Below are positions 719 through 27,314 of a stretch of DNA of 32,111 nt, one piece after another. The position numbers and the translations under genes were made by a program. The DNA is taken from the NCBI GenBank assembly GCA_016933195.1, contig JAFGBN010000018.1:1-32111 (forward strand), written 5' to 3'. The DNA comes from Dehalococcoidia bacterium (GTDB lineage Bacteria > Chloroflexota > Dehalococcoidia > GIF9 > AB-539-J10). The notes under the pieces are model-generated. The model did no database searches, had not been told where the DNA came from, and was given only the letters and a program-made list of their open reading frames with translations. How positions within the stretch are numbered: the stretch's first letter is position 1; the number at the start of each line of letters is the position of its first letter.

Positions 719-750
719 GCCATTGCGAGGGCGAAGTTCCGAACCAATCT
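719..750. repeat. Dispersed palindromic-type repeat, copy 1
   Basis: This 32-bp stretch starts GCCATTGCGAGG and ends CCGAACCAATCT. It matches, in reverse complement, the repeat at 5432-5464 (ends AGATTGCTTCGG and CCTCGCAATGGC). It lies between the TerS-like gene and the preferred ATG of terL. This argues that the TTG-extended N-terminus of terL (from 723) is repeat sequence and not protein. Confidence 0.6.
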
Positions 751-812
751 CAATCTCCAGCAGAAAGCGCTTAACGGGTAAGCAATACCAAATTTGCATT
801 AGTAGATACAAA

Positions 813-2192
813 ATGAAGCTAAGACCCTATCAAAACGAAGTAGCCAAGGCCGTACTGGACAGCATCCAGAACGGAAAAGGCCTGACCTTCTCAGTGGAGA
901 TTGCCCGCCAGGGAGGCAAGAACGAACTCTCGGCCCACCTGGAAGTCCTGCTATTGACCCTCTACATGGCCAGGGGTGGCAACCTGGTTAAGTGCTCCCC
1001 CACGTTCAAGCCTCAGACCATCATATCGATGCAGAGGCTTAAGGAAAGGCTCGATGAGTTCGGCTACGACGGCATCTATCATACCGAAATGGGATATATC
1101 ATCACCCTCGGCAGCGCCAGGGAGATATTCCTGTCGGCGGAGGAGTCGTCTTCGGTTGTGGGACATACCGCCGATATTCTCCTGGAGATCGACGAGTCCC
1201 AGGACGTCAGCAAAGAAAAATACACCAAGGAGTTCCGCCCTATGGGCTCCTCCACCAACGTAACCACCATACACTACGGCACAACCTGGGACGACGCCAC
1301 GCTACTGGAGGAGATAAAGCAGACCAACATCGAATTACAGAACAAGGACGGCATCAAGCGCCACTTTAGATTCGACTGGCAGGAGGTGGCCCGGCACAAC
1401 CCGGCATACGGCAGCTATGTTGAAGGCGAGAAAATAAGGCTAGGAGAGAACCACCCGCTATTCCGCACGCAGTATGCTTTGCTACCCATCAGTGGAGGCG
1501 GAGGCTTTCTTACCCGCCAGCAGATAGTCTTGATGATGGGCACGCACCTCAGACTCAAAGAGCCGCAGGACCGCACGGTGCCTTACATCGCAGGAATAGA
1601 TTTGGCAGGCGAGAGGGAGGAGACCAGGGAAGAAGCCCTTATGGCAGCCAGGCCAAAGCAGGACTCCACCGTCATCACAATAGCGCAGATGGAAACCGCC
1701 CAGCACTCCCGATTTCTATTAGCCGAGCCAACCCTTAAGGTGGTGGAGCAATACCAGTGGACGGGCACTCCGCACAGCAGGCTATACCCTCAAATGGTGG
1801 ATATCCTCAAGAAGTGGAATTGCCACAGGGTCCTGGTTGACGCTACCGGTATCGGCCAGCCAGTGGCCAGCTTCTTGAGAAAAGAGCTCGGCAGCCGGGT
1901 ACACCCGTTCACATTTACCCAGAGGAGCAAATCGGACATGGGCTTCGAGCTATTGTCCTTCGTTAATAGCGGCAGGCTAAAGCTGTATAAACAGGACGGC
2001 TCCAAGGAATACAAGGAGACCATGTTTCAGCTGGAGAAGGCCAGGGCTCAATACCGTCCCAATCAGACCATGAACTTCTACGTCGACCCCCAGGAGGGGC
2101 ACGACGACTTTTTGATGAGCCTGGCCCTGGCAGCAGAAGCAGCCAGAGACTTTAGCCCCAGAGCAGCCAAAGGTCTATTGAGGGCAAGTTAG
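813..2192 (+). CDS. terL: Phage terminase large subunit (ATPase plus nuclease)
   Basis: This is a 459-residue protein from the ATG at 813. The frame is also open back to a TTG at 723, but that extension is a dispersed repeat. In phages this protein drives DNA into the prohead with an N-terminal ATPase and cuts concatemers with a C-terminal RNase H-fold nuclease. Visible here are a Walker A-like loop A31-R-Q-G-G-K-N, a Walker B strand ending in D127-E128, and acidic nuclease positions in GIDLAG (D263), VDATG (D343) and HDDFLMSL (D431/D432). The length is normal for the family and both domains look intact. No portal, capsid or tail gene is adjacent, so this is an orphan packaging gene, either a prophage remnant or a gene kept for another use. 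No clear ribosome binding site precedes the ATG. Confidence 0.85.
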   Translation: MKLRPYQNEVAKAVLDSIQNGKGLTFSVEIARQGGKNELSAHLEVLLLTLYMARGGNLVKCSPTFKPQTIISMQRLKERLDEFGYDGIYHTEMGYIITLGSAREIFLSAEESSSVVGHTADILLEIDESQDVSKEKYTKEFRPMGSSTNVTTIHYGTTWDDATLLEEIKQTNIELQNKDGIKRHFRFDWQEVARHNPAYGSYVEGEKIRLGENHPLFRTQYALLPISGGGGFLTRQQIVLMMGTHLRLKEPQDRTVPYIAGIDLAGEREETREEALMAARPKQDSTVITIAQMETAQHSRFLLAEPTLKVVEQYQWTGTPHSRLYPQMVDILKKWNCHRVLVDATGIGQPVASFLRKELGSRVHPFTFTQRSKSDMGFELLSFVNSGRLKLYKQDGSKEYKETMFQLEKARAQYRPNQTMNFYVDPQEGHDDFLMSLALAAEAARDFSPRAAKGLLRAS

Positions 2193-2439: not shown

Positions 2440-2443
2440 CTAC
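2395..2443. repeat. 49-bp palindromic element overlapping the end of the tubulin-like gene
   Basis: GTAGTTGCC (2395-2403) is the exact reverse complement of GGCAACTAC (2435-2443). An inner stem, GCCCA (2423-2427) and TGGGC (2433-2437) with a 5-base loop, competes with the outer pairing. The right arm contains the TAG stop codon of the minus-strand tubulin-like gene (2440-2442). The element may also serve as a weak 3'-end hairpin for that transcript, although no T-run follows. Confidence 0.65.
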
Positions 2444-3618
2444 CCCAAACTAGGCAGCTCCTTGGCTAAATCAGCCAGGGCATCAATCTTATTCTTAGCT
2501 TCCGTTATCTCCCCTTTGTGCTCCTGTCCATATTTGACCGCCCCCTCATAGAAATCCTTTACCTTGGGAACAAAGGATAATTGGGATAATATAAGGGTAA
2601 CATCAATGAAGTGTTTTTCTCCCGGGAAATCGCCGCCTCGAATCAAAGCAGTTGGAGCCATCTCCTTGATATAATCGCTGATGCTCTTGACCATGTCCAT
2701 ATTCATTTCTCTAGGTGGACCAGACAAAATATACATAGCTTTGGCGGCATCTTTGGGGCTGCAGCCGACAGAAAGGTCAGATATAGTGGCATCCAGAGCT
2801 TGTGACCCTCTAAAGCTTTCTAGAGCCTTATCACGGAAATGTTTCTTCCTTATCTCCCAGGGAAAGCGTAAGCTGGGGAGCTCGGTTCTGCCAATTCCGA
2901 TAGCCGTCCATCCTTCTATAGTGGCAATCAAATCCCCGGCGTCTATCGTCCTTGAGCCCACATGTTTACCCTTGGTTACCTCGCCAGCGCACATCAAATC
3001 GTAGAAGGGCTCGGCAATCTGCCGATTTATCTTTTCCATGTTATTAACCAGGCTGGCATCCTTTCTCACATACCTCTGGTTATCAGCCAAAAATACGGCA
3101 TCAACCAAATCATACGTGGACTTGAGGCAGGTAGCTGAGTTATACACGCTTCTGGCCTCCGTTGCCTGCTCATGCTCAAAGGGCAGCACGACTAGAGCGT
3201 AGACTGGTCTGCTGGGGTAGCGTTCTCTAATCATCCTGGCGATTACTGGCATTGCTCCTGAGCCCGTGCCGCCAGCAGACCCGGCGATGAGCAAGAAGGC
3301 ATGCGTCTCATAGAACCTGCGCTCCGCTTTCATAGCATCCATCACCTTATCACCATCCTCCCTGGCTAACTGGGCACCAAGCTCATTTATCTTTCCCACT
3401 CCATGTCCCAATGTCTGGCGCAGGCCGATGAGTACGCGATGCATATAATCCTTCTTGATAAACTTGAGCCCTGTCAAATCCGCCTGGTCAGTATTCATGG
3501 CGAGGATAACAGGAGCTATGCTTGCTTTGCGCTCTGCATGCGCTTTAAGGTCTAGCCTGCCAAAATGGTCAGCGATCCTACAACCACACTGACCCAGTCC
3601 AATAACTGTTAGCTTCAT
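2440..3618 (-). CDS. Tubulin/FtsZ-like GTPase (non-canonical)
   Basis: This 392-aa protein has the tubulin/FtsZ nucleotide fold. The N-terminal strand-loop is GLGQCGCRI (residues 7-15). The glycine-rich tubulin signature appears as AGSAGGTGSGA (112-122). A T7-like catalytic loop, TIDAGDL followed by WTAIGIG, matches the N-x-D-x-x-D pattern of FtsZ with both aspartates kept and Asn replaced by Thr. It is expected to bind GTP and polymerise in the cytoplasm, but it is too divergent to be called the cell-division FtsZ. CetZ-like or another FtsZ paralogue is possible. AGGAGG precedes the ATG. It lies 36 bp downstream of a membrane-anchored surface protein on the same strand, suggesting one operon and a linked envelope or shape role. 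Confidence 0.8.
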   Translation of the reverse strand: MKLTVIGLGQCGCRIADHFGRLDLKAHAERKASIAPVILAMNTDQADLTGLKFIKKDYMHRVLIGLRQTLGHGVGKINELGAQLAREDGDKVMDAMKAERRFYETHAFLLIAGSAGGTGSGAMPVIARMIRERYPSRPVYALVVLPFEHEQATEARSVYNSATCLKSTYDLVDAVFLADNQRYVRKDASLVNNMEKINRQIAEPFYDLMCAGEVTKGKHVGSRTIDAGDLIATIEGWTAIGIGRTELPSLRFPWEIRKKHFRDKALESFRGSQALDATISDLSVGCSPKDAAKAMYILSGPPREMNMDMVKSISDYIKEMAPTALIRGGDFPGEKHFIDVTLILSQLSFVPKVKDFYEGAVKYGQEHKGEITEAKNKIDALADLAKELPSLG

Positions 3619-3654
3619 TTTTTAATCCTCCTACTTTTTATTTCTGTGCTTGCT

Positions 3655-5307
3655 TTAATCATACGCTACTCTCCGCCTTACACCGAAGAAGTAAACCAGC
3701 ACCCCAATGAGCACCACTATTGAAACAATGGCAACAATGAATGCCCATAGAGGCAAGAACCCAGACTTGAAGAAGTAAGCATTTGACCACTCACCGGCAT
3801 TCTGAGCCCCATCTACCGCCTTTACCCTCCAGTAATAAGTACCATATGGTAGAGCCTCAATTTCACTTAAGGTATAGCTAGTCTCGCTCAAGCCCGTCCT
3901 AGATGATATTGGATAGGCAAAATCAGCACTAGTCGCTATTTGGAAATTATAGCTAATTCCGCTATCATCTGTTACCGTTGACCATTCAAATGTCGGAGCT
4001 TGATTGCCGATAAAGCCTACTCTGCTACTATTTGCTGGCGCAGCAAGCGTCGGCTTAGACGGCGCTTGCGATTCCATAGTGAAATTGGCCGTGAACGTAG
4101 TAGAGCTACAGGTGACCACTACAGGATGATCTGCTGTATGCGTGCTTTGTGTATGAGTGGCTTCAAAGCTAATGTCTGAGAAGCTGCCATTACTATTGGT
4201 AGTACTGCTGCCTTTTTCTACCTGGTCATAGGTAACGCTCACCTGCTTATTGGCAGGGAAGCCATTGCCGGTAACGCTCAGGCTTGTGCCTACATGCCCT
4301 TCGGTGGGAGACAGCACCATGCTTGGCTTTACTTTAAATTCTACCTCATCAATGTCTTTTTTGTCGGTATACGTTCCATCAGCCGTCACGGCGTATGTAT
4401 CCATGGCAAGCTCGGGCACCTCGAGGGTTTTTGTCCAGCAGCCATCTTCATCAGCTATGATACCCGAGGCTATCATATCGTTATCAAACAATATCCTGAT
4501 ACTCTCCTCATCTTCCTCAAACCCGCTGCCCGTTACTACCAAGCTATCGCCGACATAACCCTCAGTAGTGTCTAAGCTTATCCCCGGCAGGACTTCAAAT
4601 TCGTCTTCTGCCCCTTTAATTTTATCATTTATAAGATCGTCAGCCTTGTCACCCACAGCGTAGACTTTGTGGTCTCCTTTATTGGCAGGGGGCACCTTAA
4701 AGGTAAAGTCATCCCAGCTTCCATAATCATCAACATCGATGTCCTGGGCAGATATCTCAACATAATAATCCCTATCATCTAAATGAGAACTGCCAGGGTC
4801 ATTAAGGTAAAACCTTATCTCAATTTCCGATTCATTCTCATGCCATCCCTTGCCCGTTACTCCAACCTCAGTTCCCACGGGCCCTTCTGTCTCATCTATC
4901 TCTATTGAGGGGTAAACGTTGAACTCCACGGTATCAATATCATGGTCGGGGTCGGAAGAATAGCAGATAAAAATGTCGTGTTCTCCCATGCAGCTTTCTG
5001 GTATCTCAAAATCGGTGTAAAAATAGTAAAGGCCATTCACAGTATCGTGCTCGGAGTAACTTACTTTCACATAATCCCAATCGTCTTTATCCTCGTTATA
5101 TAGTTCATAGTAGATATAGATATAAGAACCATGGGTATCATCCCAATTGCCAGATATTCTTATCTCATCTCCCACATAGCCCTCATCGCTTGAGATACTA
5201 CCGTGTGAAACATAGAAGGCCCCCGTGGCCTGGACAGGTATAGCCATGATGGGAATAGCTATAAGGCAGATGAGCAAAGCGACAATCGACCGAGATAATA
5301 ACTTCAT
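3655..5307 (-). CDS. Secreted IPT/TIG-repeat surface protein with C-terminal membrane anchor
   Basis: This 550-aa protein starts with a classical signal peptide (MKLLSRSIVALLICLIAIP, cleavage probably after PVQA). At least three repeats share a signature of the type S/E-x-T-E-G-x-V-G-T/D followed by V-T-G-x-G (for example SPTEGHVGTSLSVTGNGF), and a first, more diverged copy begins SSDEGYVGDEIRISG. This is typical of IPT/TIG immunoglobulin-like folds. A fibronectin-III-like module follows (FEWSTVTDDSGISY to YYWRVKAVDG). A single transmembrane helix (FIVAIVSIVVLIGVLVYFF) then leads to a short RRRVAYD tail. This predicts an extracellular stalk anchored in the membrane with only a few cytoplasmic residues. 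GAGGAGG precedes the ATG. It is the first gene of an operon with the tubulin-like GTPase. Confidence 0.8.
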   Translation of the reverse strand: MKLLSRSIVALLICLIAIPIMAIPVQATGAFYVSHGSISSDEGYVGDEIRISGNWDDTHGSYIYIYYELYNEDKDDWDYVKVSYSEHDTVNGLYYFYTDFEIPESCMGEHDIFICYSSDPDHDIDTVEFNVYPSIEIDETEGPVGTEVGVTGKGWHENESEIEIRFYLNDPGSSHLDDRDYYVEISAQDIDVDDYGSWDDFTFKVPPANKGDHKVYAVGDKADDLINDKIKGAEDEFEVLPGISLDTTEGYVGDSLVVTGSGFEEDEESIRILFDNDMIASGIIADEDGCWTKTLEVPELAMDTYAVTADGTYTDKKDIDEVEFKVKPSMVLSPTEGHVGTSLSVTGNGFPANKQVSVTYDQVEKGSSTTNSNGSFSDISFEATHTQSTHTADHPVVVTCSSTTFTANFTMESQAPSKPTLAAPANSSRVGFIGNQAPTFEWSTVTDDSGISYNFQIATSADFAYPISSRTGLSETSYTLSEIEALPYGTYYWRVKAVDGAQNAGEWSNAYFFKSGFLPLWAFIVAIVSIVVLIGVLVYFFGVRRRVAYD

Positions 5308-5369
5308 TTGATTAACCTCCTCTTAGTTTCTTTCCTTGCATTCCGTTTTTATTGTGAGCCTATTCTATC

Positions 5370-5491
5370 ATGTCCTTGCAATAAGCCGAAGCCCTGAGTA
5401 TAGCGAGAGGGAAGCGTGGCAACCTCCTGTAAGATTGCTTCGGCACTTTGTGCCTCGCAATGGCAAACGGAAAGACTCCTTGTAAGGACAT
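5370..5491. mobile_element. MITE-like element with 12-bp terminal inverted repeats
   Basis: ATGTCCTTGCAA (5370-5381) and TTGTAAGGACAT (5480-5491) are reverse complements with one mismatch. They bound a 122-bp non-coding segment. It contains the dispersed repeat at 5432-5464. No clear target-site duplication is visible and there is no transposase. It could be a non-autonomous element or simply a compound palindromic repeat. Confidence 0.45.
5432..5464. repeat. Dispersed palindromic-type repeat, copy 2
   Basis: This 33-bp segment begins AGATTGCTTCGG and ends CCTCGCAATGGC. It matches 719-750 in reverse complement. Degraded relatives appear at 6455-6480 and 12811-12847. Confidence 0.6.
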
Positions 5492-5729
5492 ACCATTATT
5501 ATAAACGAAATCCTCCTCAAAAAGTAAATAGTAAAATTGCACTTTTGGAACGAAGTGGTGAGAGGAGATTCACCCGGGTTGCTCCAGCATCCTGCCTATA
5601 GGATTGCTCCCATGTTAGCGCTAATCAGAGCTGCTGGCCTTCCAGCTAAATAGTCAATGAGAGCAGCGGCGTATCTTGCTGGAAAGCAAAATCTAGGCCA
5701 GCTAGTAAGGAAAAGACGATTGCCAAAAG

Positions 5730-20434: not shown

Positions 20435-23400
20435 ATGAGTAAATCTAAGAGAAGTAAGAAGGATCAACTGGGCTTGGGAGATGAGCTATATGGGACCAGA
20501 CTTGGAGAATTCCGTGATCGTTCGCCAAAGAAATCTGGTACTGACCTATTTATCATCGATAACAGTGATGAAGACTGGAAAGTAATCGATTATCTCCATG
20601 ATTGGTGCCAGCTTTCTCAGTCGATTGATGTAGCAACAGGGTTTTTCGAAATTGGCTCTTTGCTTGCTTTAGAGGGTGAATGGCAAAAAGTTGATAAATT
20701 CCGGATATTAATGGGTGATGAGGTTTCTTTACGTACAAAGAAAGTCTTTGATCAAGGACTAGAAAATATTACTCGCAGATTGGATAGTAGCATAGAGACT
20801 GTAAAGGAAAACAATGACTTTTTAGTAGGTGTACCGGCGATAGTAGAAGCGATTAAAGCTAAAAAGATTGAGTGTAAAGTCTATCGAGAGAACAAATTTC
20901 ACGCAAAAGCCTATATTACTAGAGCTCGTCAAGAAGTAATCGGCTCTTTCGGGCTGGTGGGCTCGTCAAATTTCACTCTGCCTGGTTTATCAAAAAACGT
21001 TGAACTTAATGTTCAAATTACAGGCAGACAGGTCAATGCTCTACAAGAATGGTATGAAGAATACTGGAGGCATGCTGAAGATGTGTCTCATGAAATACTC
21101 CGTGTTATTGAAAGACATACGCGTGAATATCAGCCTTTTGAAATATATGTCAAAGCGCTTCAGGAGTTTTTCCGCGGTCACGAAATTACCGAATCTGAAT
21201 GGGAACTGACCGGATCGAAAATGCTTCCCGTACTTGACCAGTATCAGAAAGAGGGCTATTGGTCACTGGTAAAAATCGCCAAGCAATATGGTGGGGCATT
21301 CCTGTGTGACGGAGTCGGACTAGGGAAAACCTTTATCGGGTTAATGCTTATCGAACGATTGATTATGCACGAGAGAAAACGGGTTGTCTTATTCGTCCCG
21401 AAAGCTATCCGAAAAGATGTTTGGGAAAGAGATATTCGTCGATACCTCCCTGATTTGTGGGGGGATTTCAGTAATTTGGCAATTTTTAATCACACAGATC
21501 TGAGTAGAGAAGGTGAATTTCCTCGAAGATTCGAAAAAATAGCAGAAATGGCCGATGCCATCGTCATTGATGAAGCACATCATTTCCGGAATCCAGGAAT
21601 TAAAGGTACTGGCGAAAGAAAGCCTTCCCGCTACTGGAAGCTGTTGGACCTCATCGGCGGTTCTCATGGCACCAAACAGGTCTATATGTTGACAGCCACT
21701 CCGATTAATAACCAGCTTGACGATCTCCGACATATGATTGAGTTATTTTCACGGCAAAGAGAGGATTACTTTAAATCCACGCTGGGTATCCATTCCTTGA
21801 AGGGACGTTTCATCACGATGGAGCGTGAACTTAAGAAAAAAACAGAAACTAAACAAACGGACGACGAACCGATGAGCACAGATACTAGTGAAGCTGAGAA
21901 GGTTCTCAGTTCTGATAATTTATTTAATGCCCTGGTCGTACAGAGGAGTAGGGCCTATGTTAAGCAGAGTCAAATACAAGAAGGCGGCAGGATTACCAGT
22001 TTCCCAGAGCGAAAGCCACCGCAAGTTGCACAATACTCAGTAAGAAAAACCTACGGCAAACTGCTCGATGATGTCGATAAGGCTTTTAAGAAAGAAAAGG
22101 CTCTTTTCGTCCTCGGTATTTACTACCCTCTTTATTATTATAAAGGACCAGATACGACAATCGACCCTCTGCTGCATGGTCGTCAGAGACAGGTCGTTAG
22201 TCTGATACGAACCCAGTTTCTCAAGCGCTTCGAAAGCTCAGCAAGCGCTTTTGAAAGTTCCTGTGATAGGTTGCTTATTAAGTTATTAGCCTGGGCAACG
22301 AAGCATAGTGAAACCGAAAGCGAACGTCGAAGACTGGAACGGTGGAAAGAAATGCATTCAGACTTGATTCACTATGTGCACTCGCGCCAGCTTGAACTAT
22401 GGGGTAGCGAAGAGGATATCCAAGAACTGGAAGAAGACGTTATTACCGAGGAAATGCTAGAGGAAATCGAATATCTCTCCCGGGCTGATTACAAAGTTGA
22501 AGAAATATTAAATGATACAAGAGACGACCTCGACCAGATAGCTATCTTTCTTGAGGAACTGCATAAATTTAAACCAGCACAGGATGACAAGCTACAATCC
22601 TTAATTAGATTACTAAAGACAGACCCAGTGCTGAAAACAAACAAGGTCATTATCTTCTCCGAATTCGCCGATACGGCACGTTATCTGAAAAAACAATTGC
22701 AAGCAGCCGGCATAGAAGGAGTTGAGCAGATTGACAGTGGTACAAAAGGAGACAGGAGCGCAATAATCAGGCGATTTGCTCCATATTACAACGATTCATC
22801 AAGTTCTCAGTTGAAAACGCATGGCAGTAAAGAGATAAGGATCATTATATCCACAGATATTCTTTCAGAGGGTCTCAACCTCCAAGACGCCACCCGACTC
22901 ATTAACTATGACCTGCACTGGAACCCTGTTCGACTTATGCAACGCATCGGCCGTATTGACCGTAGATTGAACCCGGAAAATGAAGCTCGGATTATTGCAG
23001 ACCATCCGGAACAAAAGGAACTACGCAGCAAAGTAGCTTACTGGAATTTCTTGCCTCCGGAGGATCTGGATGTACTGCTCCGCCTTTACCAGCTTGTCTC
23101 CCATAAAACCCTACGCATTTCCAAGACGTTTGGTATAGAAGGTAAGAAACTGCTAACGGAAAAAGATGATTATGAAGCTCTTAAGAATTTCAATGAAACA
23201 TATGAAGGTACAACGACCCTGATTGAAGACATGCACCTGGAGTACCAGCGGATTCTAAAAGAACACCCCGAGCTAGCTGATAGGCTTAAAATGTTGCCGG
23301 GGCGTGTCTTCACGGGTAAAGAGCATCCTTCAAAGAAAGCTCAGGCAGTCTTTTTCTGCTATCGGATACCGAGACCCGACTATTCTCTTGCCGGTGACAA

Positions 23401-23668
23401 TGACGAGCATCCCTGGACTGAAGAAGCCGGCGAAACCAAGTGGTATCTCTACGACCTAGCTACCGAAGCGATACTTGAAGAACCCGCGGAAATCGTCGAT
23501 ATTATCCGTTCCACTCCTGAAACTCCGCGAGTATGCCGGATTGAAAAACAAACCCTGACCGATATCAGAAAACAAGTAGAAAAGCACATTAAGAACACAT
23601 ATCTTAAACGAGTACAAGCCCCGGTAGGCATCCAGCCTAAATTGAAGGCCTGGATGGAACTTGCGTAA
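20435..23668 (+). CDS. PLD-nuclease/SNF2-type helicase fusion (defence)
   Basis: This 1077-aa protein has an N-terminal phospholipase-D-like nuclease domain (about 30-215) with H156-A-K158 and GSSN179. A full superfamily 2 SNF2-type helicase follows: motif I DGVGLGKT (292-299), motif II D379-E-A-H, motif III LTATP (419-423), and C-terminal motifs STDILSEGLNLQ and QRIGRIDR (836-843). A charged insertion lies between the lobes (about 460-720). Such enzymes translocate on DNA and cut it in restriction-like systems, for example DrmD/DrmC in DISARM, where the two activities are separate proteins, and the helicase of helicase-methylase-ATPase systems. It is the first gene of the operon. The methyltransferase ATG follows its stop by 10 bp. 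The ribosome binding site is weak. Confidence 0.88.
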   Translation: MSKSKRSKKDQLGLGDELYGTRLGEFRDRSPKKSGTDLFIIDNSDEDWKVIDYLHDWCQLSQSIDVATGFFEIGSLLALEGEWQKVDKFRILMGDEVSLRTKKVFDQGLENITRRLDSSIETVKENNDFLVGVPAIVEAIKAKKIECKVYRENKFHAKAYITRARQEVIGSFGLVGSSNFTLPGLSKNVELNVQITGRQVNALQEWYEEYWRHAEDVSHEILRVIERHTREYQPFEIYVKALQEFFRGHEITESEWELTGSKMLPVLDQYQKEGYWSLVKIAKQYGGAFLCDGVGLGKTFIGLMLIERLIMHERKRVVLFVPKAIRKDVWERDIRRYLPDLWGDFSNLAIFNHTDLSREGEFPRRFEKIAEMADAIVIDEAHHFRNPGIKGTGERKPSRYWKLLDLIGGSHGTKQVYMLTATPINNQLDDLRHMIELFSRQREDYFKSTLGIHSLKGRFITMERELKKKTETKQTDDEPMSTDTSEAEKVLSSDNLFNALVVQRSRAYVKQSQIQEGGRITSFPERKPPQVAQYSVRKTYGKLLDDVDKAFKKEKALFVLGIYYPLYYYKGPDTTIDPLLHGRQRQVVSLIRTQFLKRFESSASAFESSCDRLLIKLLAWATKHSETESERRRLERWKEMHSDLIHYVHSRQLELWGSEEDIQELEEDVITEEMLEEIEYLSRADYKVEEILNDTRDDLDQIAIFLEELHKFKPAQDDKLQSLIRLLKTDPVLKTNKVIIFSEFADTARYLKKQLQAAGIEGVEQIDSGTKGDRSAIIRRFAPYYNDSSSSQLKTHGSKEIRIIISTDILSEGLNLQDATRLINYDLHWNPVRLMQRIGRIDRRLNPENEARIIADHPEQKELRSKVAYWNFLPPEDLDVLLRLYQLVSHKTLRISKTFGIEGKKLLTEKDDYEALKNFNETYEGTTTLIEDMHLEYQRILKEHPELADRLKMLPGRVFTGKEHPSKKAQAVFFCYRIPRPDYSLAGDNDEHPWTEEAGETKWYLYDLATEAILEEPAEIVDIIRSTPETPRVCRIEKQTLTDIRKQVEKHIKNTYLKRVQAPVGIQPKLKAWMELA

Positions 23669-23678
23669 AGGTAACGCC

Positions 23679-26600
23679 ATGATAGAGCAGCAAAGAGTCT
23701 ATCGTATCAAAGACGTGGATTCTTTGTTAGGTTTCCTGCAGGAAACTTTGTGCTGGGAATTACCGGAAGCCAGTATCGATGACGTTTCCTTTGAGTGGAC
23801 TGGACTAGACCTGAACCTTTCTGAAGATGTCAACAAAAAACTTAAGGACGGGTTGATACGTCAGTTGCAACCCTTTGCCACTCATCAACCGTGGGGAATC
23901 TTCGTCGTTGAGTTTGTCACCCGTCAAGTCTCAATAATCACCTTGCGGCAAATACTCCGGTCCTTCGTCGCCAAAAGGCGTGGTGCCCGGCCTGACCTCC
24001 CCGCCTGGCAATGCGAGAACCTCTTGTTCATCTGCCTGTATGGCGAGAATGGCTTCACCTTTGCCCACTTCAAAGGAGATAAACCCTATTCCTCAAGGTT
24101 GACCACATTCAGCTGGCATCCTGGGGAGCCTGTCCGGACGGTCTGCGAATTTAACTTGCCGGCGCTCGTCTACGATCACACTTGGACACTTGAAACCTGG
24201 GTTGAACAATGGCAGAAAGCCTTCGATGTTGAAAAGGTCAATAAAGATTTCTACAAACAGATTGCCCGGTTCTATTACCGGCTTACTGGAAAAGAAGGGC
24301 AAAAACGTGAGCTCGTGCTGCCATATGTTGGGGATGATTCTGGCAGCATCAGTATTTATGAAGAGTTTGCGATACGGCTTATTGGCCGCTCTATATTCTG
24401 CTGGTTTCTTAAGCACAAACTATCCGAAGAATCCAATGTGCCGCTGATTCCTCCAGAGGCGTTGTCGCTGGCTGCCGCCCGAGAGACGGAAGACTTCTAT
24501 CACTCTATGCTGGAACCTCTCTTCTTCGAGGTGCTGAACAAGCCGCTCAAAGACAGAGTATCCGTCCCAGTTCCCCGGTCGGAGATAATCCCGTTCCTCA
24601 ACGGCGGCCTCTTTGAACCTCACCCCGACGACTTTTATCCGGGCGTTGCGAATTACGGATTGAAGATACCTGCCGCCTGGTTCGTCGACTTCTTCAGCCT
24701 CCTTGAGAGATACAACTTCACCATCACGGAGAACAGTAGCATCGATGTTGATGTGGCGGTCGACCCGGAGATGCTCGGCAGAATCTTCGAAAACCTTCTG
24801 GCTGAGGTCAATCCGGAGACTGGAGAGACCGCCCGCAAAGCCACCGGCAGTTACTACACCCCACGCACAATAGTAGATTACATGGTTGACCAAAGCATCA
24901 AGCGTTATTTATTCAACAAAACAGGGGTTGACGAGGGCAAGCTGGCAGACTTGCTCTCCTATGAAGAACCGGAGGTCATTTTAAGTGGCAAGGAAAAAGA
25001 TTCCATAATATCTGCGCTTGATGAGATTAAGATTATCGATCCGGCTTGTGGGTCCGGAGCTTTTCCGATGGGTATTTTACACAAGATCCTGCTGGTACTG
25101 GGAAAGACGGACCCAGAAATGAAACGTTGGTTTAAACAGAAGTTTGGTACCATCGATGATGTCCTGTTGAAGAAAGAAATCATGGAGCGCCTGGAAAAGG
25201 AAAATTGGGAATATGTGCGGAAGTTGCTCATTATTCGTAACTCCATTTACGGTGTTGATATCCAGACGATCGCGGTGGAAATATCGAAGCTGCGTTTCTT
25301 CCTGTCACTGGTGGTGGATGAAAAGATAGATGACCAGGATGAAAACAGGGGTGTAAAACCTTTGCCGAACCTTGAGTTCAAATTTGTAGCTGCCAATACC
25401 CTGATAGGCGTCCCAAAACCGGAGACAAAGAAGAAGGCCTTAATTGATTTTGAGGACAACGAATCCATCGAAGCTCTTGCCAAGATACGTAACAGCTACT
25501 TCACCAGTTACGGGGAAGACAGACTAGAGGTAAAAAAGGACTTTACTGCAGTACAGCAAAAGATGTTTGAATTCTACTTGCAGAATTTGAATCAGGAACA
25601 GCGGAATCTGGTTGGTGCTGTCAAGAAAGTAAATACCTCCGGGAAAACCGCTACGCAAATGCTCTCAGAATGGGAACCGTTCTCGTTTAAGCGATGCGAT
25701 TGGTTTGATCCAAAATGGATGTTCGGAGTAGCTGATGGTTTTGACATCGTTATCGGTAACCCTCCATATTTGCGGGTTCAGGGCATTCAGCAAACTCAAC
25801 CGGAGTATATGTCCTATTACCGTGATAATTATCAGTCAGCGAAGGGGAATTTTGATTTATATGCATTATTCATTGAGCGCGGCTATCAGCTTCTGAATTC
25901 CCAAGGACAATTCGCCTACATCGTGCCTCATAAGTTCTTCCAGGCATCTTTTGGGGGAGCACTCCGCCGGTTTCTCACTGAGCGGGGAGCTTTGCGTGAG
26001 ATCGTTCGTTTTGGCTCTTCGCAGGTATTTGAAGAAAGTACCACTTACACCTGCCTGCTTCTCCTGGGGGCTGAGCCTAGTTCCAGCTTCGATTTATTGG
26101 AAGTAAAGACACTGGATCGCGGCGAAGAAGTGTTACAGGCGGCCCGGACCCGGACAAACCATCCCGATTATGCTTTCGAGCCCTATCCGGAACCAACCAT
26201 CAGCCGAGATAATAAAGCCGTAGAGTGGGACTTTTCGATAGGTGAAGACAGACGCATCATAGGACGCCTGCAACAACATGAAAGTACGTTGGGCAACCTC
26301 GTGCGCAAGATATTCCAAGGATTAGCGACGAGCGCCGATAGAATCTATGTGCTGAAGATCCTGGATCAATATACGGACTCATACCTCTGTTATTCGAATT
26401 ATTGGGAAGAGGAGGTGGAAATTGAACGCGGCTTGGTGAAGCCGTTCCTAATGGGCAAGGATGTCCACCGTTACGAGCCCGCCAGAGCGCACAACCTTGT
26501 GATCTTCCCGTACATCATAAGGAACGGCCGAGCCGAGTTGATGTCCCAGGAATACATTCAAGCAGCCTTTCCAATGGGATGGGATTATATAAACCAAAAT

Positions 26601-27314
26601 AAGAAAGAGCTTGCTGCCCGTGAGCATGATCGGTTTGCGGTGGATTGGCATGCCTTCAGCCGACCACAGAATCTAACTGAGTTCGAAAATCCCAAGATAA
26701 TTACACCGGAGATTGCTTTCGGGTGTCGGATGACTTTTGACTCCGTAGGTATTTATCATACTACCAAAGTTTATGGTTTTGCGCTCAAATCGGGAATCAA
26801 ACAGTCACCCAAGTTCTTATTAGGTCTTCTCAATTCCAAACTTCTATGGTTTTTCCTTTCGTGCACTGGTTATGTATTACGTGGGGGCTATCGTACTTTC
26901 AAGACCGAATATCTCAAGCCGTTTCCTGTCGCGGAGTCCACACAGAAGCGGGAACGGTTAATTGAGACTTTGGTAGACTATGTGCTTTTTCTGAAATCTC
27001 TGGACAAACCGACTGAGATAGACCTGGCATCTAGCCTGAGTGTGATGACAGCCTATTTCGAGCAGCTGATAGATGCGCTGGTATATGAGATGTACTTCCC
27101 GGAGGAATTTGTCGATTCTAGCAAGTCCCCCAGTCAGTTGTTGATCAAGGAGCAATTACCTGCTATTAGCGAATTGAAAGGCGACAAGGCTTCTAACCTG
27201 CGGAAACTGTTTAGACGACTGTATGCCACTGACCATCCAGTACGCTCAATGATATTCTTCTTGGATACCCTTGAGACCGTACGCGCGATTGAAGCTAAGT
27301 CGAAAATACAATGA
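23679..27314 (+). CDS. Eco57I/PglX-like N6-adenine DNA methyltransferase
   Basis: The ATG at 23679 follows AAAGGT and gives 1211 residues; a TTG at 23661 would overlap the helicase stop. The order is an N-terminal domain of about 370 residues of unassigned fold (includes EFVTRQVSIITLRQILRSF), YYTPRTIVDYM (about 390), SAM-binding motif I DPACGSGAF (454-462), YGVDIQTIAVEI, catalytic motif IV N694-P-P-Y, and a C-terminal target-recognition region containing GGYRTFKTEYLKPFP. It should methylate adenine to mark self DNA. Large single-chain methylases of this kind are used by type IIG, BREX (PglX) and DISARM (DrmMI) systems. I see no clear nuclease motif in it, so cutting is probably left to its neighbours. 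Its TGA overlaps the ATPase ATG (ATGA). Confidence 0.88.
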   Translation: MIEQQRVYRIKDVDSLLGFLQETLCWELPEASIDDVSFEWTGLDLNLSEDVNKKLKDGLIRQLQPFATHQPWGIFVVEFVTRQVSIITLRQILRSFVAKRRGARPDLPAWQCENLLFICLYGENGFTFAHFKGDKPYSSRLTTFSWHPGEPVRTVCEFNLPALVYDHTWTLETWVEQWQKAFDVEKVNKDFYKQIARFYYRLTGKEGQKRELVLPYVGDDSGSISIYEEFAIRLIGRSIFCWFLKHKLSEESNVPLIPPEALSLAAARETEDFYHSMLEPLFFEVLNKPLKDRVSVPVPRSEIIPFLNGGLFEPHPDDFYPGVANYGLKIPAAWFVDFFSLLERYNFTITENSSIDVDVAVDPEMLGRIFENLLAEVNPETGETARKATGSYYTPRTIVDYMVDQSIKRYLFNKTGVDEGKLADLLSYEEPEVILSGKEKDSIISALDEIKIIDPACGSGAFPMGILHKILLVLGKTDPEMKRWFKQKFGTIDDVLLKKEIMERLEKENWEYVRKLLIIRNSIYGVDIQTIAVEISKLRFFLSLVVDEKIDDQDENRGVKPLPNLEFKFVAANTLIGVPKPETKKKALIDFEDNESIEALAKIRNSYFTSYGEDRLEVKKDFTAVQQKMFEFYLQNLNQEQRNLVGAVKKVNTSGKTATQMLSEWEPFSFKRCDWFDPKWMFGVADGFDIVIGNPPYLRVQGIQQTQPEYMSYYRDNYQSAKGNFDLYALFIERGYQLLNSQGQFAYIVPHKFFQASFGGALRRFLTERGALREIVRFGSSQVFEESTTYTCLLLLGAEPSSSFDLLEVKTLDRGEEVLQAARTRTNHPDYAFEPYPEPTISRDNKAVEWDFSIGEDRRIIGRLQQHESTLGNLVRKIFQGLATSADRIYVLKILDQYTDSYLCYSNYWEEEVEIERGLVKPFLMGKDVHRYEPARAHNLVIFPYIIRNGRAELMSQEYIQAAFPMGWDYINQNKKELAAREHDRFAVDWHAFSRPQNLTEFENPKIITPEIAFGCRMTFDSVGIYHTTKVYGFALKSGIKQSPKFLLGLLNSKLLWFFLSCTGYVLRGGYRTFKTEYLKPFPVAESTQKRERLIETLVDYVLFLKSLDKPTEIDLASSLSVMTAYFEQLIDALVYEMYFPEEFVDSSKSPSQLLIKEQLPAISELKGDKASNLRKLFRRLYATDHPVRSMIFFLDTLETVRAIEAKSKIQ

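Follow-up and report, generated by a model that had tools for sequence, protein, structure and literature searches.

The closest described relatives of the protein treated here are the archaeal tubulin-superfamily proteins CetZ1 and CetZ2 of Haloferax volcanii (structures 4b46 and 4b45), in which a tubulin GTPase domain is combined with a CetZ_C domain. The available excerpts of one study term CetZ archaea-specific and place pilin, envelope and surface-protein genes near some archaeal cetZ genes (PMC9856176). CetZ-like proteins with similarity to CetZ_C have already been published for the Dehalococcoidia of the phylum Chloroflexota (PMC9871819, 2023, in excerpts). Here we describe a gene of this kind, designated cetZ-A, in a 32,111-nucleotide stretch of a Dehalococcoidia bacterium (the window; contig C52 of a draft genome with 1.93 Mb, 92.3% completeness and 5.14% contamination), together with the gene for a surface protein that precedes it in related genomes as well and is called the stalk gene in the following (Table 1). 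Judged from the excerpts, the proteins of PMC9871819 are the same protein group as CetZ-A; the passages at hand describe no subfamilies, no surface-protein pair, no overlap with wall genes and no C-terminal peptide. In the literature found, which was partly available as excerpts and covers subscription journals little, partner-specific CetZ subfamilies, the stalk pair, the C-terminal peptide and the wall-gene overlap are undescribed.

That the GTPase is a bacterial CetZ is nearly certain from profile matches and a structure model. Its matches to Pfam Tubulin (E 1.3e-31, 110.8 bits, cut-off 33) and Pfam CetZ_C (PF21011; E 4.2e-19, 69.1 bits, cut-off 21.6) show that cetZ-A is not a chance open reading frame (ORF). 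In the same scan neither FtsZ_C nor, at E 0.01, Tubulin_C was matched. The top sequence matches in the PDB are 4b46 and 4b45, i.e., Haloferax CetZ1 and CetZ2, and by this protein the closest named relatives of the genome are metagenome-assembled genomes of Dehalococcoidia. An AlphaFold2 model was built from 31 aligned rows (predicted local distance difference test (pLDDT) 86, predicted TM-score (pTM) 0.87). In the fold comparison CetZ2 and CetZ1 rank first with Z 44.9 each, followed by a Methanosaeta CetZ (37.9), FtsZ (35.4) and tubulins (~34), and TubZ structures rank below CetZ as well. The model superposes on CetZ1 and CetZ2 with a root-mean-square deviation of 1.5-1.8 A over 326-331 residues, although sequence identity is only 30-33%.

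A sequence-only reading of this DNA had proposed a divergent tubulin-family protein, distinct from the division FtsZ and encoded behind a membrane-anchored surface protein. The family assignment is borne out and can be sharpened to CetZ, and the separation from division FtsZ holds too. The genome carries three tubulin-family genes, namely ftsZ directly after ftsA on contig C73, cetZ-A and a second CetZ (CetZ-B), so that the GTPase is not the only FtsZ candidate of its genome; its being the only FtsZ is what the sequence-only reading had considered damaging. CetZ-A shares with bacterial FtsZ the superfamily, the GTPase loops and a similar C-terminal peptide; however, it reaches only 55.7 bits with the NCBI FtsZ model TIGR00065 (cut-off 295.2), whereas the separate FtsZ scores 404 bits. 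This weak match and a further weak one to phrog_17961 (E 5.7e-06) are what could be cited for the gene being the FtsZ of the organism or a phage- or plasmid-borne TubZ-like protein. Such an identity has next to no probability: the FtsZ reading is contradicted by a separate FtsZ over the cut-off, and the CetZ_C domain and the top rank of the CetZ structures count against FtsZ and TubZ alike. The scanned neighbours of cetZ-A look chromosomal, with the exception of one terminase-like gene.

For the phylogeny, 114 CetZ rows were reduced by 4 duplicates and 19 rows omitted by hand to a 91-row tree, and 50 of the 91 were used in a smaller tree. The sequence-only reading had suggested a comparison with FtsZ, CetZ and TubZ; of this the FtsZ part stood, with all CetZs separated from two FtsZ rows by 100/100 in the 50-row tree, whereas tubulin and TubZ rows were not included and the archaeal sample is haloarchaeal only. 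The Dehalococcoidia CetZs except locus L108 form a group beside the haloarchaeal CetZs with modest support (90/75), and CetZ-A is set apart from the subgroup CetZ-C with weak support (87/66). CetZ-A loci outside the 91-row tree were placed afterwards with FastTree; there all 41 CetZ-A sequences fall into one clade (support 0.994), which otherwise holds only six CetZ-C rows.

The link to the stalk gene is the most stable feature of the neighbourhood. From 39 listed CetZ-A loci, three with <500 bp of upstream sequence were set aside, and in 35 of the remaining 36 a co-directional stalk gene precedes cetZ-A. Of these, 32 were found by listing. Gene calls were longest-ORF picks, which missed the stalk gene in L041, L051 and L059 as well as cetZ in L043; all were recovered by phmmer and tblastn. 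L043 and L031 also have the stalk gene, so that 37 of 38 loci with >=600 bp upstream share the gene order of the window. The only locus that departs from this, L104, is a surplus CetZ-A gene: its genome, G058, also carries the copy at L031. At other positions the commonest family reaches 8/23 (-2), 12/34 (+1) and 7/27 (+2). The pair persists in no fewer than three families and among CetZ-A proteins with identities as low as ~57%. A pairing lost among relatives, which the sequence-only reading had named as a point against itself, was thus not found. A CetZ-A and stalk pair with 76% identity also occurs in L078 on a contig titled candidate division WWE3, probably a mis-binned Dehalococcoidia sequence. 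Another surface-protein pairing was dropped: in one genome a CetZ gene is immediately preceded by the gene for a 1597-aa FG-GAP/MBG/Ig protein that ends in a hydrophobic helix (L114:4151-8944), but this arrangement is not shared by the relatives L135, L136 and L137.

In the window the stalk gene comes first and cetZ-A follows after 36 bp, both on the minus strand. Both reading frames, this spacing and the two strong ribosome binding sites (AGGAGG in each case) are as the sequence-only reading had described them, and a Shine-Dalgarno-like motif precedes 34 of 37 cetZ-A starts when a loose pattern is used. From direction and spacing, co-transcription of the two genes as an operon is likely. Promoter-like sites are near chance (10 observed vs 6.6 expected), whereas terminator-like sites on both strands exceed it (9 vs 2.9).

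The stalk protein has the architecture of an exported surface protein anchored in the membrane by its C-terminus, as far as sequence and model indicate. The Pfam TIG match (E 9e-07), a signal peptide and a C-terminal helix agree with the membrane-anchored IPT/TIG protein of the sequence-only reading. The model (pLDDT 84, pTM 0.61) shows an N-terminal helix, about five beta-sandwich domains and a C-terminal helix; the domain count is a reading of the model strands, and the signal peptide was assigned by hydropathy, alignment and model. Other C-terminally anchored TIG/Ig-like surface proteins likewise combine a signal peptide, beta-sandwich repeats and a single C-terminal membrane helix, but the stalk differs from them in being linked to cetZ. 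Beyond TIG, weak sub-cut-off profile matches and one weak PDB profile match were obtained, and no S-layer (surface-layer) domain is among the stalk matches in the domain-library scans. A fold search was discarded as uninformative since it returned many generic beta-sandwich matches with TM-scores <=0.19. The stalk diverges more than its partner (28-62% identity to the window copy vs 57-81% for CetZ-A). One more paralog with 38% identity is encoded on another contig of the genome, and in a tree the linked copies form no single clade separate from unlinked paralogs.

Both GTPase motifs given by the sequence-only reading, SAGGTGSG and TIDAGDL, are present in the translation. The first contains the T4 loop, which serves nucleotide binding in the tubulin superfamily, and the second the acidic T7 loop, which is thought to be catalytic. 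In the 31 aligned rows G116, G119, S120 and G121 of T4 are invariant and G117 and T118 nearly so; in T7, G228 and D229 are invariant and D226 nearly so. By contrast, CetZ-C copies (L061:13587-14690, L058:10525-11625) carry GSLGSG or GGVGSG in place of GGTGSG and a G in place of the first acidic T7 residue, and the C-terminal peptide is absent. From these replacements CetZ-C copies are possibly inactive GTPases.

The C-terminal peptide of FtsZ binds FtsA and SepF. CetZ-A ends in a similar peptide, ELPSL, where the own FtsZ has DLPSFLR and that of B. subtilis DIPTFLR. Among the non-identical Dehalococcoidia CetZ rows, counted without two 3'-truncated ones, 90 of 99 contain the pattern [DEGQNS][ILV]Px[LIVMF] within the last 12 residues; the other ORFs of these loci with >=150 aa contain it in 8 of 981 cases. 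When position one is restricted to [DE], the counts are 74/99 vs 3/981. As the pattern was written after the tails had been inspected, these counts are descriptive only. The nine rows without the peptide are the six CetZ-C rows, L108, L109 and L115. The five haloarchaeal CetZs compared have no such pattern in their tails either, and unlike these CetZ-A has a proline-bearing C-terminal peptide in a host with FtsA. Among division proteins, ZipA is described as a binder of the FtsZ peptide (PMC4835091, in excerpts).

To place CetZ among its hosts, 400 genomes drawn from the phylum Chloroflexota were surveyed for CetZ_C. All 26 positive genomes belong to the class of the window, and 374 were without a match. 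Wall genes were compared between these 26 and 20 of the 374 negative genomes, all of them class members; the 46 genomes are not independent because they all lie within one class. A mraY match over the cut-off was found in 0/26 CetZ-positive vs 7/20 CetZ-negative genomes, with an eighth (G359) just under it. For murC over the cut-off (335) the counts are 0/26 vs 8/20, and for full-length MreB (>=329 bits) 0/26 vs 8/20, the identical eight genomes. The murC model matches 35 of the 46 genomes at E 0.001 or better, with eight above the cut-off; the own genome reaches 30.2 bits and the best CetZ-positive genome 44.7 bits, and we take such matches to be related ligases such as FolC. The MreB model matches all 46 genomes, with a best score of 63.5 bits outside those eight; since ftsA (C73) accounts for one of the weak matches in the own genome, MreB was only counted at >=329 bits. 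According to the excerpts of PMC10608941, the ancestor shared by Dehalococcoidales and SAR202 lost the dcw genes but kept ftsZ and ftsA, and D. mccartyi is without murein, its wall being S-layer-like.

In this sample CetZ is a diversified bacterial group, confined to genomes of one class without mraY, over-cut-off murC and full-length MreB. We propose that CetZ-A forms a membrane-associated scaffold for cell shape and for organisation of the surface coat, apart from FtsZ division, and give this a probability of roughly 45%. CetZ-A would bind and probably hydrolyse GTP, as the conserved motifs suggest, and by analogy to the CetZ family it would polymerise beneath the cytoplasmic membrane. The ELPSL peptide probably docks it on the membrane via an adaptor such as FtsA, in the manner of the FtsZ peptide. 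In a cell without murein-synthesis genes and full-length MreB, the filament would share in shape control; a shape role is plausible from the likeness to archaeal CetZ1 and the absent full-length MreB. As the conserved pair suggests, the filament may organise where the anchored Ig/TIG stalk, as a component of the surface coat, inserts or stays. Division would be handled separately by FtsZ and FtsA, both of which are present. If true, this opens two questions to testing: by what means a bacterium without murein maintains its shape, and whether an S-layer-like envelope goes together with CetZ in both domains.

The sequence-only reading had thought of an appendage or contact system. While its separation from division FtsZ and the pairing stood, this part found no support here: archaellin is unmatched in the genome itself, and no pilus domain was found among the scanned neighbours. 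An archaellum link was also rejected across genomes, where archaellin matches occur in 4/26 CetZ-positive and 5/20 CetZ-negative ones. Archaella in Chloroflexota are reported to have been acquired from archaea (PMC12488501), in a study whose main text is without the word CetZ.

Other CetZ subgroups track other neighbours, just as CetZ-A tracks the stalk gene. CetZ-C mostly adjoins AMMECR1 and mgsA-type genes. CetZ-B has a small helical gene, a long helical-repeat gene or both facing it in 23 of 23 rows, 22 of them directly and L094 after a 70-aa ORF. The long partner measures 425-910 aa, has an acidic end and carries a motif resembling R[LM]xxLxxM[YF] at the C-terminus, and such loci are found class-wide (L090:8957-12306, L069, L111, L113, L119, L138, L142 and others). 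Four long and two small partners were scanned with Pfam, with no match over the cut-off; 'coiled-coil' assignments were made by eye. L108 (L108:9495-10553, genome G007) and its counterpart L109 (L109:8203-9261, genome G020, left out of the tree), both from the family of the window, represent another kind of CetZ, and L108, which lies among bacterial neighbours, has the highest CetZ_C score of the survey. It groups with haloarchaeal CetZ (99/96), and forcing it among the other Dehalococcoidia CetZs is mildly rejected (p-AU 0.031). This suggests a second, separate transfer of CetZ from archaea, although long branches make it unsure. Two CetZ copies are carried by putative Dehalococcoides genomes, a genus used in bioremediation. 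For D. mccartyi three transcripts annotated as FtsZ are given in excerpts of PMC5102406 (DET0589, DET0636 and DET0343, the last being linked with DET0342, the transcript of FtsA), and at least one of them is probably a CetZ.

Several findings weigh against a scaffold role in shape and coat organisation. In relatives the gap between the stalk gene and cetZ-A varies from 36 to 616 bp, and in the window two minus-strand terminator-like sites (3742-3755 and 3697-3716) fall inside the stalk gene, at its 3' end; the wide gaps and these sites, if real, weaken co-transcription. The cytosolic tail of the stalk has ~7 residues in the model and differs between families, RRRxYD-like vs SKGGWxS-like. It leaves little room for direct CetZ contact, which is not favoured over an indirect link. 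In other Dehalococcoidia the CetZ-G subgroup mostly adjoins GAPDH and dnaX-type genes and is without a surface protein. ELPSL has neither the F nor the R found in the FtsZ peptide, and SepF was rejected as a docking partner since it was found in 0/46 genomes, with a control positive in 7/14. For the wall genes the overlap is one-sided: 12 of the 20 CetZ-negative genomes are also without mraY, murC, full-length MreB and FtsW/RodA, so that the loss does not require CetZ, and shared ancestry may explain the overlap. FtsW/RodA was matched in 8/20 CetZ-negative genomes but also in one of the 26 CetZ-positive ones, G398. This match (G398:C2:402-1445) lies near a contig end and may be contamination.

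Apart from the scaffold, CetZ-A could be an accessory division protein that joins or regulates the FtsZ-FtsA ring via its peptide, with the stalk as a mere neighbour. The resemblance to the own FtsZ peptide and the presence of ftsA speak for this, but the missing F and R of DLPSFLR count against it too, and in the loci read cetZ-A lies away from ftsA and ftsZ and is linked to a surface gene instead; we regard it as unlikely. A broader idea, itself unlikely, is that CetZ docked on FtsA by an FtsZ-mimicking peptide shapes bacteria without murein and MreB, that the stalk-dedicated subfamily links cytoskeleton and coat in place of the MreB-murein link, and that other subfamilies have partners of their own, e.g., the two helical-repeat proteins of CetZ-B. 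CetZ-A could instead position or stabilise a complex of the membrane or of metabolism, a role also put forward for cetZ regions in archaea, and the stalk link would then be incidental. Many CetZ-G copies adjoin GAPDH and enolase-type genes, and metabolic neighbours are discussed for archaeal cetZ in the excerpts of PMC9856176; however, such genes were not seen beside CetZ-A, where the stalk gene is nearly always present, and this role appears rather improbable. No better placed is an inherited but neutral adjacency of two unrelated genes that were never separated. The link may have arisen just once, in the ancestor of a single order, and the variable gap and the terminator-like sites before it would fit, but the other neighbours were reshuffled in the same loci while the pair persisted over the same range of families and CetZ-A identities.

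Table 1. Features of the stalk and cetZ-A genes, with positions in the window
Feature	Position	Strand	Basis
cetZ-A, CetZ-family tubulin-superfamily GTPase, 392 aa	2440..3618	-	Pfam Tubulin and CetZ_C; top PDB sequence match 4b46; CetZ1/2 fold match
C-terminal peptide ELPSL, FtsZ-peptide-like	2446..2460	-	pattern within last 12 residues
T7 loop DAGD, residues 226-229	2932..2943	-	conservation in 31 aligned rows
T4 loop GGTGSG, residues 116-121	3256..3273	-	conservation in 31 aligned rows
cetZ-A ribosome binding site AGGAGG, 8 bases before ATG	3627..3632	-	sequence
Surface stalk protein, 550 aa: signal peptide, ~five TIG/Ig-like beta-sandwich domains, C-terminal membrane helix, 7-residue tail	3655..5307	-	Pfam TIG, model, alignment
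Stalk C-terminal membrane helix, residues 520-543	3679..3750	-	hydropathy; helix in model
Stalk signal peptide, residues 1-27, end judged by eye	5227..5307	-	hydrophobic N-terminus; model helix 3-21
Stalk-gene ribosome binding site AGGAGG, 8 bases before ATG	5316..5321	-	sequence

Upstream of the pair, a VTT-domain gene is found together with the heat-shock set dnaJ-hspR-clpB. Downstream, a phage terminase-large-subunit-like gene (window 723-2192; also L101:7789-9515) is convergent to cetZ-A. It is the next gene after cetZ-A in 12 of 34 loci, and in relatives a small-subunit-like gene lies beside it. The intergenic stretch at 5380-5500, 5' of the stalk gene, looks by eye like a dispersed repeat. 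At 20435-27314 a helicase/PLD-domain gene is followed by an Eco57I-type methylase gene, likely a restriction or defence cassette.

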